Source: Deltaproteobacteria bacterium | GTDB lineage: Bacteria; Desulfobacterota_D; UBA1144; Nemesobacterales; UBA2774 | DNA length: 33,850 nucleotides | Assembly: GCA_029262255.1 (NCBI GenBank) | Contig: JAJCZT010000025.1 | Location: 1-33,850, forward strand | Reading direction: 5' to 3' | Part shown: piece after piece, positions 9,425 through 15,075 of the stretch | Layout of the letters: each line of letters opens with the position of its first letter | How positions within the stretch are numbered: the first letter of the stretch is position 1 | Notes under the pieces: model-generated | Database searches by the model: none | Seen by the model: only the letters and a program-made list of their open reading frames with translations | What the model was told of the DNA's origin: nothing | Program-made: the position numbers and the translations under genes

Positions 9425-10609
9425 CTATTTATTCAGAAATCTTCTGATACCCCGTACAGCCTGCATAATGCGTTTTTCGTTTTCTACTAACGCGAACCTT
9501 ACGGACCCCTCACCGTAATTTCCAAACCCTATTCCGGGCGAGACGGCAACTTTAGCTTCCTCAATTAAGAGCTTTGAGAACTCGAGTGACCCCATGCTCT
9601 TAAAATCCCGGGGTATTTCTCCCCACACAAACATAGTGCCTTTGGGTTTTGGGATATTCCATCCTGCCCTGTTAAGTCCTTCTACTAATCTGTCCCTTCT
9701 TAACTTGTAAAGGTCTCTAATCTCGCCCACGCAGTCCTGAGGGCCGTTTAGAGCGGATATGGCAGCTACCTGAACGGGCGCGAATATTCCATAGTCCATG
9801 TAACTTTTAATTCGTTTCAGCGCCGATACAATCTTTTCATTCCCTACCATAAATCCCACCCGCCACCCGGGCATATTGTAGCTTTTGGATAGTGAGTAAA
9901 ATTCGACCCCCACTTCTTTAGCCCCAGGGATCTGAAGAAAGCTGGGAGCCTCGTATCCGTCATAGCAAAGCTCTGCATAAGCTAGATCATGAACCACTAT
10001 AAGTCCCGATTCTTTCGCAAGCTCGTATATGCTCTTAAAGAAATCAATATCAACTACCTCGGTTGTGGGGTTGTTAGGGAAAGAAATCATAAGAACCTTT
10101 GGCTTGGGCCATATTTCCTTAACCACTTTTTTAATCGATTCTATCAGCTCTGTACCGCCAGAGAGTTCCACGCTCTGAACATCACCTCTTGAGATGATCA
10201 CGGAATATATATGAATCGGGTAAGCGGGATTGGGCACGATCACCGTATCTCCCGGTGAGAGTATTGATAGCATCAGGTGAGAGATACCCTCTTTTGATCC
10301 TATTGTAACTACAGCTTCGGTGTCAGGGTTGAGGTCAACATTATATTTTCTTTTATACCAGTCGCACACAGCCAACCGTAATTTTGGTATGCCGGCAGAG
10401 GCCGAATACCGATGTGATCTTGGGTCACTGGCAGCTTCAATCAGCTTCTTAACTATGTGCTCAGGGGTTGGTTGATCCGGATTACCCATCCCTAGATCGA
10501 TAATATCTTCCCCCTTAGCTCTAGCTTTGGTTTTAAGCTCGTTAACTATATTAAAGACATAGGGGGGGAGCCGTCTTATAAGTGAGAATTCGTCTGGTGA
10601 ATGTGGCAT
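9425..10609 (-). CDS. alaC: pyridoxal-phosphate aminotransferase, class I/II, AlaC (YfdZ)-like
   Basis: [92 protein letters not shown] (PLP Lys), [24 protein letters not shown]. Confidence 0.88.
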
Positions 10610-10667: not shown

Positions 10668-10706
10668 TCAGCCAAAATATTTCATTATATAGAAAATACG
10701 GGGTTG

Positions 10707-11096
10707 ATGAATATCAAATTTATTGTACTTGTCTTAATTTTAAGTTTTTTCTTTCCATTATCAAGTGATTCTCTTGAGCATTCTCCTCAATATGGAAATG
10801 CCTCCTGGTACGGTGGTGCTTTCCAAGGCAGAAAAACAGCTAGCGGTGAGCGTTTTGATATGCATAGTTTTACCGGAGCTCATAAAAAATTACCTTTCGG
10901 AACAATTATCAGGGTTACAAATCTACGAAACGGTAAAGAAGTTTTTATTAGAGTGAATGATCGCGGCCCATTCGTAAAAGGACGGATAATTGACCTTTCA
11001 CATGCTGCCGCCAAAGCTATTAATTTCAATAATAAAGGGGTTATTAGGGTCAGGATTGAAGTTCTCTCTTTGCCTGGTAGTCCAACTTCAGGCTGA
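10707..11096 (+). CDS. rlpA: RlpA-like double-psi beta-barrel protein, short form without SPOR domain
   Basis: Signal peptide, then [70 protein letters not shown]. Start taken at ATG 10707 (track uses TTG 10704). Confidence 0.85.
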
Positions 11097-11153: not shown

Positions 11154-11825
11154 ATGAATATTAGAGCGCTTCTGTTATTATTTCTCCTTCCTATTGTTTT
11201 CTCGTGCGGGAAAAAGGGGGTTACTCCATATCCTGCTCATCAAGAACCTCCCTCTCAAGGATTTGTAACTGAAGGCTCCACACAAATAGGTCTTGCTTCC
11301 TGGTATGGTCTAGAAGAGCACAACAACTATGCCGCGAGCGGCGAGCGCTTCAGTAAGCATGCGTATACCGCAGCGCATAAAACTCTGCCCATGGGCACTG
11401 TAGTAAGAGTGACCAATTTAGAAAATGGAAGAGACGTTATTGTAAAGATAAACGACAGAGGGCCATTTGTGGGAGACCGCATAATTGATCTGTCTCATGC
11501 ACCCGCTAAATCGGTTGATATGATTCAAAAAGGGGTGGTTAAAGTAAAAGTTGAGGTTGTCTCGACCCCGTCCACAAGAAGCTCTAACTATTTTGACCCG
11601 GAATATACTGTTCAGGTAGCATCATACCGCGACAATGCAAATGCGAGTATTCTAAAAAGGAAGCTCGATATTGAGTACAGTGATGTCAGAGTTGAATCAG
11701 TCAAGGTTAAGGGAGACACTTATTACAGGGTCCGAGTGGGGCGCTATTCCGGCAAACGGGATGCTGAAAAGGCAGCTTCTAGACTCAGAAAAAAGGGCTA
11801 TACGACAAGGGTCATTCTCGAGTAG
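11154..11825 (+). CDS. rlpA: RlpA-like septal ring lipoprotein, DPBB domain plus C-terminal SPOR domain
   Basis: Lipobox [47 protein letters not shown]-terminal YTVQVASYRDNANASILKRKL...YYRVRVGRYSGKRDAEKAASRLRKKGY SPOR signature. Confidence 0.92.
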   Translation: MNIRALLLLFLLPIVFSCGKKGVTPYPAHQEPPSQGFVTEGSTQIGLASWYGLEEHNNYAASGERFSKHAYTAAHKTLPMGTVVRVTNLENGRDVIVKINDRGPFVGDRIIDLSHAPAKSVDMIQKGVVKVKVEVVSTPSTRSSNYFDPEYTVQVASYRDNANASILKRKLDIEYSDVRVESVKVKGDTYYRVRVGRYSGKRDAEKAASRLRKKGYTTRVILE

Positions 11826-11855: not shown

Positions 11856-12722
11856 ATGAATCATTTTGTTAAATCACACGGACTTGGAAATGACTATTTT
11901 GTAATGGATCAATCTGAATTATCATTTGATCTCACACCAGAAGTTATACAACTGCTTTGTCACAGAAACTACGGTATAGGATCTGACGGCATACTTCTTT
12001 TGGTCCCGTCTGATAAAGCTGATTTCGGGCTCAGAATATTAAATCCTGACGGCAGCGAAGCTGAGAAAAGCGGAAACGGTCTCAGAATTTTTGCCAAATA
12101 CCTTTTTGAGCACGGGCATACAGAAGAGGAAGTATTTAAAATCGATACCCTTGGCGGGGTAGTTACAGCAGAGCTTGAAACAACTGAAGGCATAGTCCCC
12201 TTTGTGACGGTAGAGATGGGGGAGGCTACTTTTCAAAGTAATTTAATCCCTGTAGCAGGGGAGCAGAGAGAGGTAGTTGATGAAGAAATAAATGTAGACG
12301 GAGAGCCTCTTAAAATTACAGCAGTTTCAGTCGGAAATCCCCACTGTGTGGTTTTTGTTGACGAGCTTGACGAAGGATATCTCAGAATACTGGGTCCTTT
12401 GCTCGAGACCCACAAACTCTTTCCAAACCGTATTAACGTTCAGCTTGCAAAACCCCTCTCCCGAGACAGGGTTCAAATACTTATCTGGGAGCGCGGCGCT
12501 GGTTACACGCTCGCCTCGGGCAGCAGCTCTTGTGCTGTAGCCTCGGCATGCGTAAAAAATGGTTTGACCGACGGCAATGTTACTGTTTCTATGCCTGGGG
12601 GCGAGCTCGATATTCATATTAGAGATGATTGGTCGATTAAAATGAGGGGAGCTGTGGAAGAAGTGGCTGAAGGCACATTGAGCATAGACCTACTTAAAAG
12701 AATAGAGAAGATCACCGGTTAA
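11856..12722 (+). CDS. dapF: DapF-family protein (diaminopimelate epimerase fold) with Ser at both catalytic Cys positions
   Basis: KSHGLGNDYFVMD, GIGSDGILLL, LRILNPDGSEAEKSGNGLRIFAKY, VSVGNPHCVVFVD, FPNRINVQLA, WERGAGYTLASGSSSCAVAS. Family assignment is clear; exact activity is uncertain because the active-site Cys are replaced. Confidence 0.85.
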   Translation: MNHFVKSHGLGNDYFVMDQSELSFDLTPEVIQLLCHRNYGIGSDGILLLVPSDKADFGLRILNPDGSEAEKSGNGLRIFAKYLFEHGHTEEEVFKIDTLGGVVTAELETTEGIVPFVTVEMGEATFQSNLIPVAGEQREVVDEEINVDGEPLKITAVSVGNPHCVVFVDELDEGYLRILGPLLETHKLFPNRINVQLAKPLSRDRVQILIWERGAGYTLASGSSSCAVASACVKNGLTDGNVTVSMPGGELDIHIRDDWSIKMRGAVEEVAEGTLSIDLLKRIEKITG

Positions 12723-12764: not shown

Positions 12765-14015
12765 ATGGAAAAGTTATTAATATCAGCTGATACAATTCTT
12801 CCTGTTTCCTCTGACCCTATAAAGGACGGCGCCTTAGTTGTTTCGGGCGGAAAAATCGAAGACATAGGAAATGCCTCCGTACTCAGAGGGAAGTATAGAA
12901 GAGTAAAGGAGCATAGTTTAGGCAGCGGCACTCTTCTTCCGGGGTTTATAAATGCGCATACTCATCTTGAGCTTGGCTGGATCAAAAAAAAGGTCGGCAA
13001 CTTTAAGGGTTTTACCTCATGGCTTCAGCAGATAATAAAGGCAAAAAAAGAAGGCGTTACAAATCAGGAAATACAAGAGTCGGTGGCGGATGGAATTAAA
13101 GCGCAGATTGAGAGCGGCGTAACTACAGTTGGGGAAATTTCATCATACGGCGGTCTGGATATCCCGATATTAAAGCACTCAGGCCTTAGAACAATACTCT
13201 TTAGAGAGGCGGTCGATAGTAAAGAAGGTATGATGGATTTTGATACATTTAAGACATCATCTCTTTATGAAGAAAGGCTCTTTCCTCACGCACCTTACTC
13301 CTGCAGTCCTGGCCTGCTCGAGAAAACGCTTAATTCTCATAGGAAAAGTAATAGACCCCTGGGTATCCATCTTGCTGAAAGTAAAGAAGAGATCGAATTT
13401 GTAAATAGAAAAGCAAATGCTATTGAGAATGAAATATTTCCTCTGATAGATAAAAAATCCTTTAAGCGTAAAAAGGCCGATACCCCATTTGGGTATTTAA
13501 AGAGCATGGGGTTCTTTGATCACGGCGGGGTAACAACAGTTCATATGGTTCAGGTGAGTTCTGAGGAAATTAAGGAGATAGAAAATCTGGACATAGGAAT
13601 TGTATTATGTCCGAGAAGCAATTTGTTCCTCCAAGTCGGTATTCCTCCGCTTAGAGAATACTCCAGGCTTAAAAGGGTCGGTGTAGGCACTGACGGTCTG
13701 TCCAGTAACTACAACCTCGACTTCTTTGAAGAGCTCAGGGTTCTTCACCTTCTCTACTCGGAGGCCTTAGGAAGAGAAGCATCATATGAGACAATTTATT
13801 CGGCTACACTTGGTGGGGCCGGAGCTCTGTTTCTGGAGGACAGAATCGGCAGCATAGAGATAGGAAAAGAGGCCGATCTCATATTCCTTAACTCTAAAGA
13901 CGATTTCAACAATCCCTATCTATCCGTTGTCTCCTCTACTAATGAGAATCTGGAGCTTGTAATGGTCAGGGGAAATATTCTGTATTCCAAAAAAACTATC
14001 TCTTCAAAGAATTAA
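12765..14015 (+). CDS. TrzA/ATZ-type amidohydrolase, candidate aminodeoxyfutalosine deaminase (MqnF-like)
   Basis: GFINAHTHLELGW (HxH), GIHLAESKEE, TTVHMVQVSSEE, CPRSNLFLQVG, GVGTDGLSSNYNLDFFEEL metal and active-site motifs. MqnF role suggested by mqnA/mqnD in the same window. Confidence 0.72.
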   Translation: MEKLLISADTILPVSSDPIKDGALVVSGGKIEDIGNASVLRGKYRRVKEHSLGSGTLLPGFINAHTHLELGWIKKKVGNFKGFTSWLQQIIKAKKEGVTNQEIQESVADGIKAQIESGVTTVGEISSYGGLDIPILKHSGLRTILFREAVDSKEGMMDFDTFKTSSLYEERLFPHAPYSCSPGLLEKTLNSHRKSNRPLGIHLAESKEEIEFVNRKANAIENEIFPLIDKKSFKRKKADTPFGYLKSMGFFDHGGVTTVHMVQVSSEEIKEIENLDIGIVLCPRSNLFLQVGIPPLREYSRLKRVGVGTDGLSSNYNLDFFEELRVLHLLYSEALGREASYETIYSATLGGAGALFLEDRIGSIEIGKEADLIFLNSKDDFNNPYLSVVSSTNENLELVMVRGNILYSKKTISSKN

Positions 14016-14016
14016 G

Positions 14017-15075
14017 ATGCCCGCAAAATTAAGTAAAGTTTTCGTCTATGGAACCCTTCTCCAGGGTGAGCTCAGAAGCCATTTTCTGAACGATTGTAGA
14101 TTACTAAAAACTCTAGACATCCCCGGGGCCCTATACGATACAAAAAGAGGCTATCCGGCTGCGGTATTTGACCGGCGGTCTCGGAACAAAGTAGCGGGGG
14201 AGCTCTATATTATGGGGAATCCGGGCAACAAATTAAAAGAACTTGATGCGGTAGAAGATGTGGATTCAGGGCTTTTTAAAAAAGTGATTTTAAAACATAA
14301 CGGTGAGGAATTTATTTCTTACGAGCCGGGTTCTCTACTGGAAGAATGCGTCAATCCTATAAATCAAATTGAGACGGGAAGCTGGAGGAGGTATTCGTCT
14401 CTATGTTTTAATGACCCGATTGGATTTGGATTAAAGTTTGAGGACCGTCAGAAGTATCTATACAGAGAGTCCTCAACTTCTGATTCTGAAGGTTCTATCT
14501 ATATCCCCGGAGATTTGCCGGTACTTGTTACGGCCCCCCACGCCTCGGTACACAAAAGAATGGGTAAGTTGAAACGCCAGGAGTTCTATACGGGCGCTCT
14601 ATCCGTGATGCTGCACTCCCTTACTGGCTGTCATACCCTTTATTCAAACAGGCTTATGGAATCTGATCCTAACTATTATGACGATTCTCCTTTTAAGACG
14701 AGACTAAGTGAGATAGCAAAAAAAAATGACATTAAATGTCTGATTGATCTGCACGGCACATCTCCCGAGAGGGGAGATGACATTTATCCCGGAGCGGGGG
14801 TCGATAAAGAGTTTTTGTTAGGACAGGATAATTACTTAGATGAGCTTGAACGCGCTGCGGCGTTAAACGAAATATCTATTGGAGGGCTGGACGTATTTCC
14901 CGCCGCAAGACAGATGACGGTAACTAAATATGCAGCTAGAAAGTTAGCAGTTCCCGCAGTCCAGCTTGAAATTAACCGGCAATTAAGAGAGCCTGAGAAG
15001 AGCCCTGCTGATTTTGTAAAGCTTGTTAAGTTCTTAAAAGGGTTTATTGAGAATCTATCCTATCTGCTCAGCTAG
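14017..15075 (+). CDS. two-domain protein: N-terminal gamma-glutamylcyclotransferase (GGCT/AIG2)-like and C-terminal N-formylglutamate-amidohydrolase-like
   Basis: N-terminus KVFVYGTLLQGELRSHFL...GALYDTKRGYPAAVFD...GELYIMG...LKELDAVEDVDSGLFKKV (GGCT). C-terminus LPVLVTAPHASVHKR...SDPNYYDDSPFKTRLSEI...CLIDLHGTSPERGDDI...AVPAVQLEINRQLR (FGase-like). Confidence 0.75.
   Translation: MPAKLSKVFVYGTLLQGELRSHFLNDCRLLKTLDIPGALYDTKRGYPAAVFDRRSRNKVAGELYIMGNPGNKLKELDAVEDVDSGLFKKVILKHNGEEFISYEPGSLLEECVNPINQIETGSWRRYSSLCFNDPIGFGLKFEDRQKYLYRESSTSDSEGSIYIPGDLPVLVTAPHASVHKRMGKLKRQEFYTGALSVMLHSLTGCHTLYSNRLMESDPNYYDDSPFKTRLSEIAKKNDIKCLIDLHGTSPERGDDIYPGAGVDKEFLLGQDNYLDELERAAALNEISIGGLDVFPAARQMTVTKYAARKLAVPAVQLEINRQLREPEKSPADFVKLVKFLKGFIENLSYLLS

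Follow-up and report, generated by a model that had tools for sequence, protein, structure and literature searches.

The dapF-type gene and its surroundings

The window (the whole 33,850-nucleotide stretch of DNA analysed here) carries a dapF-type gene on the forward strand (11856-12722), which encodes a protein of 288 residues and is the only DapF homologue in its genome. DapF, diaminopimelate (DAP) epimerase, serves cell-wall and lysine synthesis. The protein passes the NCBIfam DapF equivalog profile TIGR00652 with 243.8 bits (cut-off 114.65), and its only Pfam match is PF01678 (195.6 bits). A preliminary description of this DNA had recognized a DapF-family protein with both catalytic cysteines replaced by serine, and both the codons and the alignment to DapF of known structure bear this out. 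The residue Ser72 (codon AGC, 12069-12071), which follows Lys71 (Lys71-Ser72, AAA AGC, 12066-12071), occupies the position of the first catalytic cysteine (Cys73 of E. coli DapF), and Ser221 (codon TCG, 12516-12518) that of the second (Cys217 of E. coli DapF); both are read in the open reading frame 11856-12722. The PROSITE active-site signature PDOC01029, in the Cys-requiring form quoted in PMC8225329, is unmatched, as the window protein reads NPDGSEAEKSGNGLR, with Ser where Cys is required. The pair of catalytic cysteines that approach the substrate from its two sides in DapF is found neither in the window protein nor in any of the 114 members of the clade to which it belongs (114/114), hereafter the Ser-Ser clade.

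Directly upstream of dapF sit two tandem RlpA-type genes with the DPBB_1 domain (10704-11096 and 11154-11825, forward strand), the second of which also has a SPOR domain. An amidohydrolase gene (12765-14015, forward strand), nearest to the aminofutalosine deaminase family (209.8 against a cut-off of 320), follows dapF here and in many Dadabacteria loci. The next gene (14017-15075, forward strand), also conserved beside dapF in Dadabacteria, encodes a protein of 352 residues whose N-terminal domain is of the GGACT (gamma-glutamylcyclotransferase-like) type and whose C-terminal half by eye resembles N-formylglutamate amidohydrolase. On the reverse strand, a DapL-related aminotransferase gene (9425-10609) scores near alanine transaminase PRK08175 (634.4 against a cut-off of 647); a better DapL of the same genome lies on another contig. 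No operon is conserved beyond Bacteroidales and Dadabacteria: in Rokubacteria, Aquificota and Nostoc the neighbours are unrelated, a pattern typical of a housekeeping gene.

Distribution and phylogeny of the Ser-Ser clade

With the window protein as query, a scan of bacterial genomes gave 80 loci, many of them from Candidatus Dadabacteria, to which further Dadabacteria-class relatives were added. As this first set was picked by similarity to the query, further genomes were sampled by the Pfam profile. Among the 231 distinct sequences, 114 have Ser at both catalytic positions and 117 have Cys at both, with no mixed pair, and the alignment shows the two serines in every clade member. A tree calculated after removal of the motif columns places the Ser-Ser sequences on one side of a single branch, on which one change took place (SH-aLRT 96); the SGNG and CGNG homologues, whose comparison by tree had been suggested beforehand, thus separate cleanly. 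A Ser pair fixed in 114 distinct members from many phyla rules out sequencing error, chance or decay, in agreement with the earlier view that the gene is not decaying.

The Ser-Ser clade covers Dadabacteria (including the window's genome), Rokubacteria, NC10/Methylomirabilota, Hydrogenothermaceae, Prolixibacteraceae (including the cultured Sunxiuqinia), Chloroflexota, Planctomycetota, Verrucomicrobiota, Nostocaceae and others. Sampling by Pfam profile yielded 38 Cys-Cys and 13 Ser-Ser forms in 51 genomes of Aquificota. For Chloroflexota, 19 of the 41 sampled genomes have dapF, which is Cys-Cys in 15 and Ser-Ser in four. The 60 Bacteroidia genomes comprise 55 with the Cys-Cys form, three without a match, one with an unclassified fragment and one with the Ser-Ser form, the last being the genome around which the sample was centred. 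Except for a few fragmentary matches, these samples contain a single dapF per genome, and every classified genome of Aquificota and Chloroflexota carries just one of the two forms, Cys or Ser, which are thus mutually exclusive there. Given its scattered taxonomy and single origin, the Ser-Ser clade appears to have spread horizontally and to have displaced the thiol enzyme in several lineages.

In 34 of the 40 named genomes that have it, the Ser-Ser gene is the sole dapF, the six exceptions with another dapF being four cyanobacteria and two metagenome-assembled genomes. Sunxiuqinia elliptica is a cultured organism that has the Ser-Ser form only. No second dapF was found in the window's genome (2.12 Mb, 93% complete), which rules out a hidden canonical copy elsewhere in that assembly, and the Ser-Ser gene is also the only dapF in a Dadabacteria genome assembled as a single contig (G019). 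The preliminary description had proposed to look for a second, Cys-containing dapF, and had added that its absence together with wild-type-level activity would mark the protein as a Ser version of the usual enzyme; the absence is observed, which favours that view. Nostocaceae and related cyanobacteria (G088, G090, G092, G096; loci L065, L069, L074, L079) possess a Ser-Ser dapF beside a canonical Cys-Cys one, and because of these additional copies the clade may include other functions.

Codon usage at the two positions is informative as well. Ser72 is encoded by AGY in 107 members and by TCN in seven, and Ser221 by TCN in 113 and by AGY in one. As a switch between AGY and TCN needs two base changes and the residue is nevertheless still Ser, selection for Ser at positions 72 and 221 would appear to be strong.

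The epimerase step in the host genomes

Analysis of the pathway strongly suggests that these genomes depend on making meso-DAP from LL-DAP. No DAP dehydrogenase (Ddh) scores above its cut-off in any of 53 genomes (0/53), which rules out a bypass by this enzyme. By contrast, LysA exceeds its cut-off in 44 of the 53 genomes and MurE in 24 of 25, and all six MurE genes examined (6/6) have the DNPR motif that marks meso-DAP ligases. The window's genome has DapL (616 bits, over cut-off), LysA and a MurE split across two contigs, and lacks both Ddh and a second dapF. The single-contig Dadabacteria genome repeats this pattern, although its top DapL match falls slightly under the cut-off. Hydrogenothermaceae are chemolithoautotrophs and therefore have to synthesize their own lysine and meso-DAP. 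A substitute from the proline racemase family was ruled out in the window's genome, which has no PF05544 (Pro_racemase) match; the window protein itself does not match this profile, and most of the other genomes tested likewise have no candidate of this family. Altogether, epimerization of LL-DAP by the Ser-Ser protein is strongly implied.

In Bacteroidales, the Ser-Ser dapF adjoins a lysA-type decarboxylase gene, with a DapL of the type TIGR03542 nearby. This decarboxylase (L043:7241-8503 and its equivalents) scores about 284-293 against the TIGR01048 cut-off of 297.9, and it is the best LysA candidate in four genomes (G072, G078, G084, G099).

Structural model and active site

The AlphaFold2 model of the window protein has a pLDDT of 95 and displays a confident DapF two-domain fold. 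Structural similarity search using Foldseek gave DapF structures as top matches, with TM-scores of about 0.85-0.9, the C73S and C217S mutants being among the nearest. In the model, Ser72 and Ser221 immediately precede the helices 73-85 and 222-234, respectively, as the catalytic residues do in DapF.

The DapF of Corynebacterium glutamicum binds DAP via N15, N74, N85, N159, N194, E212, R213 and T223, all of which are essential, being sensitive to alanine substitution (PMC5296763). In the alignment, the Ser-Ser clade has the equivalent residues N12, N63, N74, N161, N194, E212, R213 and S/T223 with little or no variation, and G73 and H163 are likewise conserved. In the window, the DAP recognition subsite comprises Asn63 (12042-12044; E. 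coli Asn64), Asn194 (12435-12437; E. coli Asn190) and the segment Asn161-Pro-His163 (12336-12344), which also includes the active-site histidine (E. coli Asn157 and His159), whereas Glu212-Arg213 (12489-12494; E. coli Glu208-Arg209) corresponds to the residues that bind the amino and the distal carboxyl groups of DAP; these roles were assigned in CgDapF (PMC5296763), and that of the Asn-Pro-His segment also follows PMC5885031. Asn161 is among the residues kept in the Ser-Ser clade, although in Bacteroidia and Aquificota many Cys-Cys enzymes lack it. Judged by its sequence and model, the window protein folds like DapF and is predicted to bind DAP in the same way.

The clade is distinguished by Tyr14, Lys71, Ser72, Ile78, Gln196, Tyr217, Ser221, Ser224 and usually Ser225. 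Position 71 is Lys in 113 of the 114 members and Arg in the remaining one, compared to Met, Phe or Leu and never Lys in Cys-Cys DapF. The clade-specific aromatic residue at position 217 (Tyr217, 12504-12506) is Tyr, Phe or Trp, compared to mostly Glu or Ile, and position 224 (Ser224, 12525-12527), three residues past Ser221, is Ser in all 114 members, compared to Gly in Cys-Cys DapF.

Proposed mechanism and alternative explanations

We propose that the Ser-Ser gene encodes an LL-DAP to meso-DAP epimerase and that its clade, which spread horizontally from a single origin, exchanged the two catalytic cysteines for serines; to this reading we assign a probability of about 70%. The preliminary description had left the choice between a Ser-based epimerase and a neofunctionalized isomerase or dehydratase. 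The former is clearly favoured, because most host genomes have no other dapF, meso-DAP is needed where Ddh is lacking, and the DAP-contact residues are kept; the latter would leave an essential step without an enzyme.

According to the textbook mechanism, a thiol/thiolate pair is indispensable if a DapF-type enzyme is to take a proton of very high pKa from an amino acid, and replacement of Cys by Ser is fatal. Accordingly, single Cys-to-Ser mutants of PddB have less than 0.1% activity (PMC8225329), the same near-loss is reported there for M. tuberculosis DapF, and the activity of HisR is greatly reduced by C67S and by C209S (PMC11602996). Nevertheless, the proline racemase superfamily includes a natural 4-hydroxyproline epimerase in which a Ser/Cys pair supports two-base epimerization, as well as a dehydratase whose catalytic Ser90 is held by Asn93, three positions on (PMC4113996). 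By analogy, we propose that the invariant Ser224, at +3 from Ser221, and Lys71 may tune the two serines.

The simplest account would be a two-base proton transfer in which Ser/Ser replaces Cys/Cys, each catalytic Ser being placed at the N-terminus of a helix. The clade-specific residues would tune this acid-base chemistry, the basicity of Ser72 probably being adjusted by the neighbouring Lys71 and that of Ser221 by Tyr217, Ser224 and usually Ser225. The result would be a thiol-free DapF that several lineages have adopted instead of the thiol enzyme. The full proposal, a thiol-free and cofactor-free epimerase that performs Ser/Ser two-base proton transfer at DAP's unactivated alpha carbon, and that arose once from the Cys/Cys form through linked substitutions before replacing it in several phyla, seems to us probable on balance.

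One alternative is that the clade shifted to another reaction (dehydration, isomerization or a different racemization), while an unrecognized enzyme epimerizes DAP. Loss of both cysteines would be expected to abolish epimerase activity, many clade-specific substitutions lie near the active site, PhzF and t3HypD are examples of altered chemistry on this fold (PMC4113996), and cyanobacteria retain both forms. However, such a shift would mean that an essential enzyme has gone unnoticed in many phyla simultaneously, where neither Ddh in the 53 genomes nor, in the window's genome and most others tested, a proline-racemase-family candidate offers itself. It also fits poorly with the interchange of Cys-Cys and Ser-Ser dapF within Aquificota and Chloroflexota, the full conservation of the DAP recognition site and the adjoining lysA in Bacteroidales. 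We therefore regard it as unlikely.

Alternatively, the protein might be a DAP epimerase in which Lys71 or Cys164, and not the Ser pair, carries out one or both proton transfers. Lys71 is nearly invariant and absent from the Cys-Cys set, as described above, and Cys164, directly after the active-site His163, is present in 113 of the 114 clade members. Yet neither serine varies within the clade, and the two positions change in concert, with no mixed pair among the 231 sequences, and Ser is retained at both sites despite the codon switches. Moreover, Cys164 is not peculiar to the clade, being found in ordinary Cys-Cys enzymes as well (Cys160 of E. coli DapF), and hence is no compensating thiol. 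Relocation of a catalytic Cys was ruled out more generally, since the clade has no thiol of its own, Cys35 and Cys164 both being found in Cys-Cys enzymes too. Such a division of labour is rather improbable. A catalytically dead DapF kept for binding or regulation, for which the binding of RppH by E. coli DapF (PMC4227774) might serve as a model, is very improbable, as the catalytic-site and DAP-contact residues are strictly conserved across many phyla in what is the only dapF and the essential step would go without an enzyme.

If the Ser-Ser protein is a DAP epimerase, a large natural clade with Ser/Ser as its only DapF makes the thiol-pair rule directly testable, and it could reveal the second-shell changes that let Ser do the job of Cys. 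A Ser-Ser enzyme should also escape DapF inhibitors that react with thiols, such as aziDAP, which matters for the design of antibacterials. For annotation, profile libraries class the Ser-Ser members as ordinary DapF.

Comparison with known enzymes

Databases name the clade members DapF; we keep them apart from ordinary DapF, since a check for the defining Cys pair showed that it is missing. The suspicion that they form a poorly characterized subfamily gains substance from the clade of 114 and from a search confined to open-licence papers, which found no description of a natural Ser-Ser DapF, an absence that is no proof, and no characterized precedent for a Ser/Ser pair without any thiol. Most likely, the Ser-Ser protein works as a DAP epimerase and represents an apparently novel version of this enzyme.

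Compared to canonical DapF (TIGR00652; E. coli, H. influenzae, and B. anthracis 2OTN), the Ser-Ser clade shares the fold, the length, the DAP-contact residues and the position of the helix-capping pair, and likewise occurs in genomes with LysA and MurE; it differs in the Ser at both catalytic Cys positions and in Lys71, Tyr14, Tyr217, Ser224 and Ile78. The H. influenzae DapF mutants C73S (PDB 2Q9H) and C217S (PDB 2Q9J) have a matching fold and Ser at one catalytic position; however, they are single laboratory mutants that lack the neighbouring changes, and comparable mutants of relatives are nearly inactive.

The Ser/Cys 4-hydroxyproline 2-epimerase and the Ser/Thr trans-3-hydroxyproline dehydratase (PMC4113996) resemble the Ser-Ser DapF in the two-domain fold and the natural Ser at a catalytic position, but belong to the family PF05544 and act on another substrate. 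The former is an active epimerase that keeps one Cys, whereas the Ser-Ser clade keeps neither. Similarly, HisR, CntK, PddB and the O-ureidoserine racemase DcsC share the DapF-like fold and the two-base mechanism, but they have Cys pairs and act on other substrates, whereas Ser-Ser proteins still have the residues that recognize DAP.
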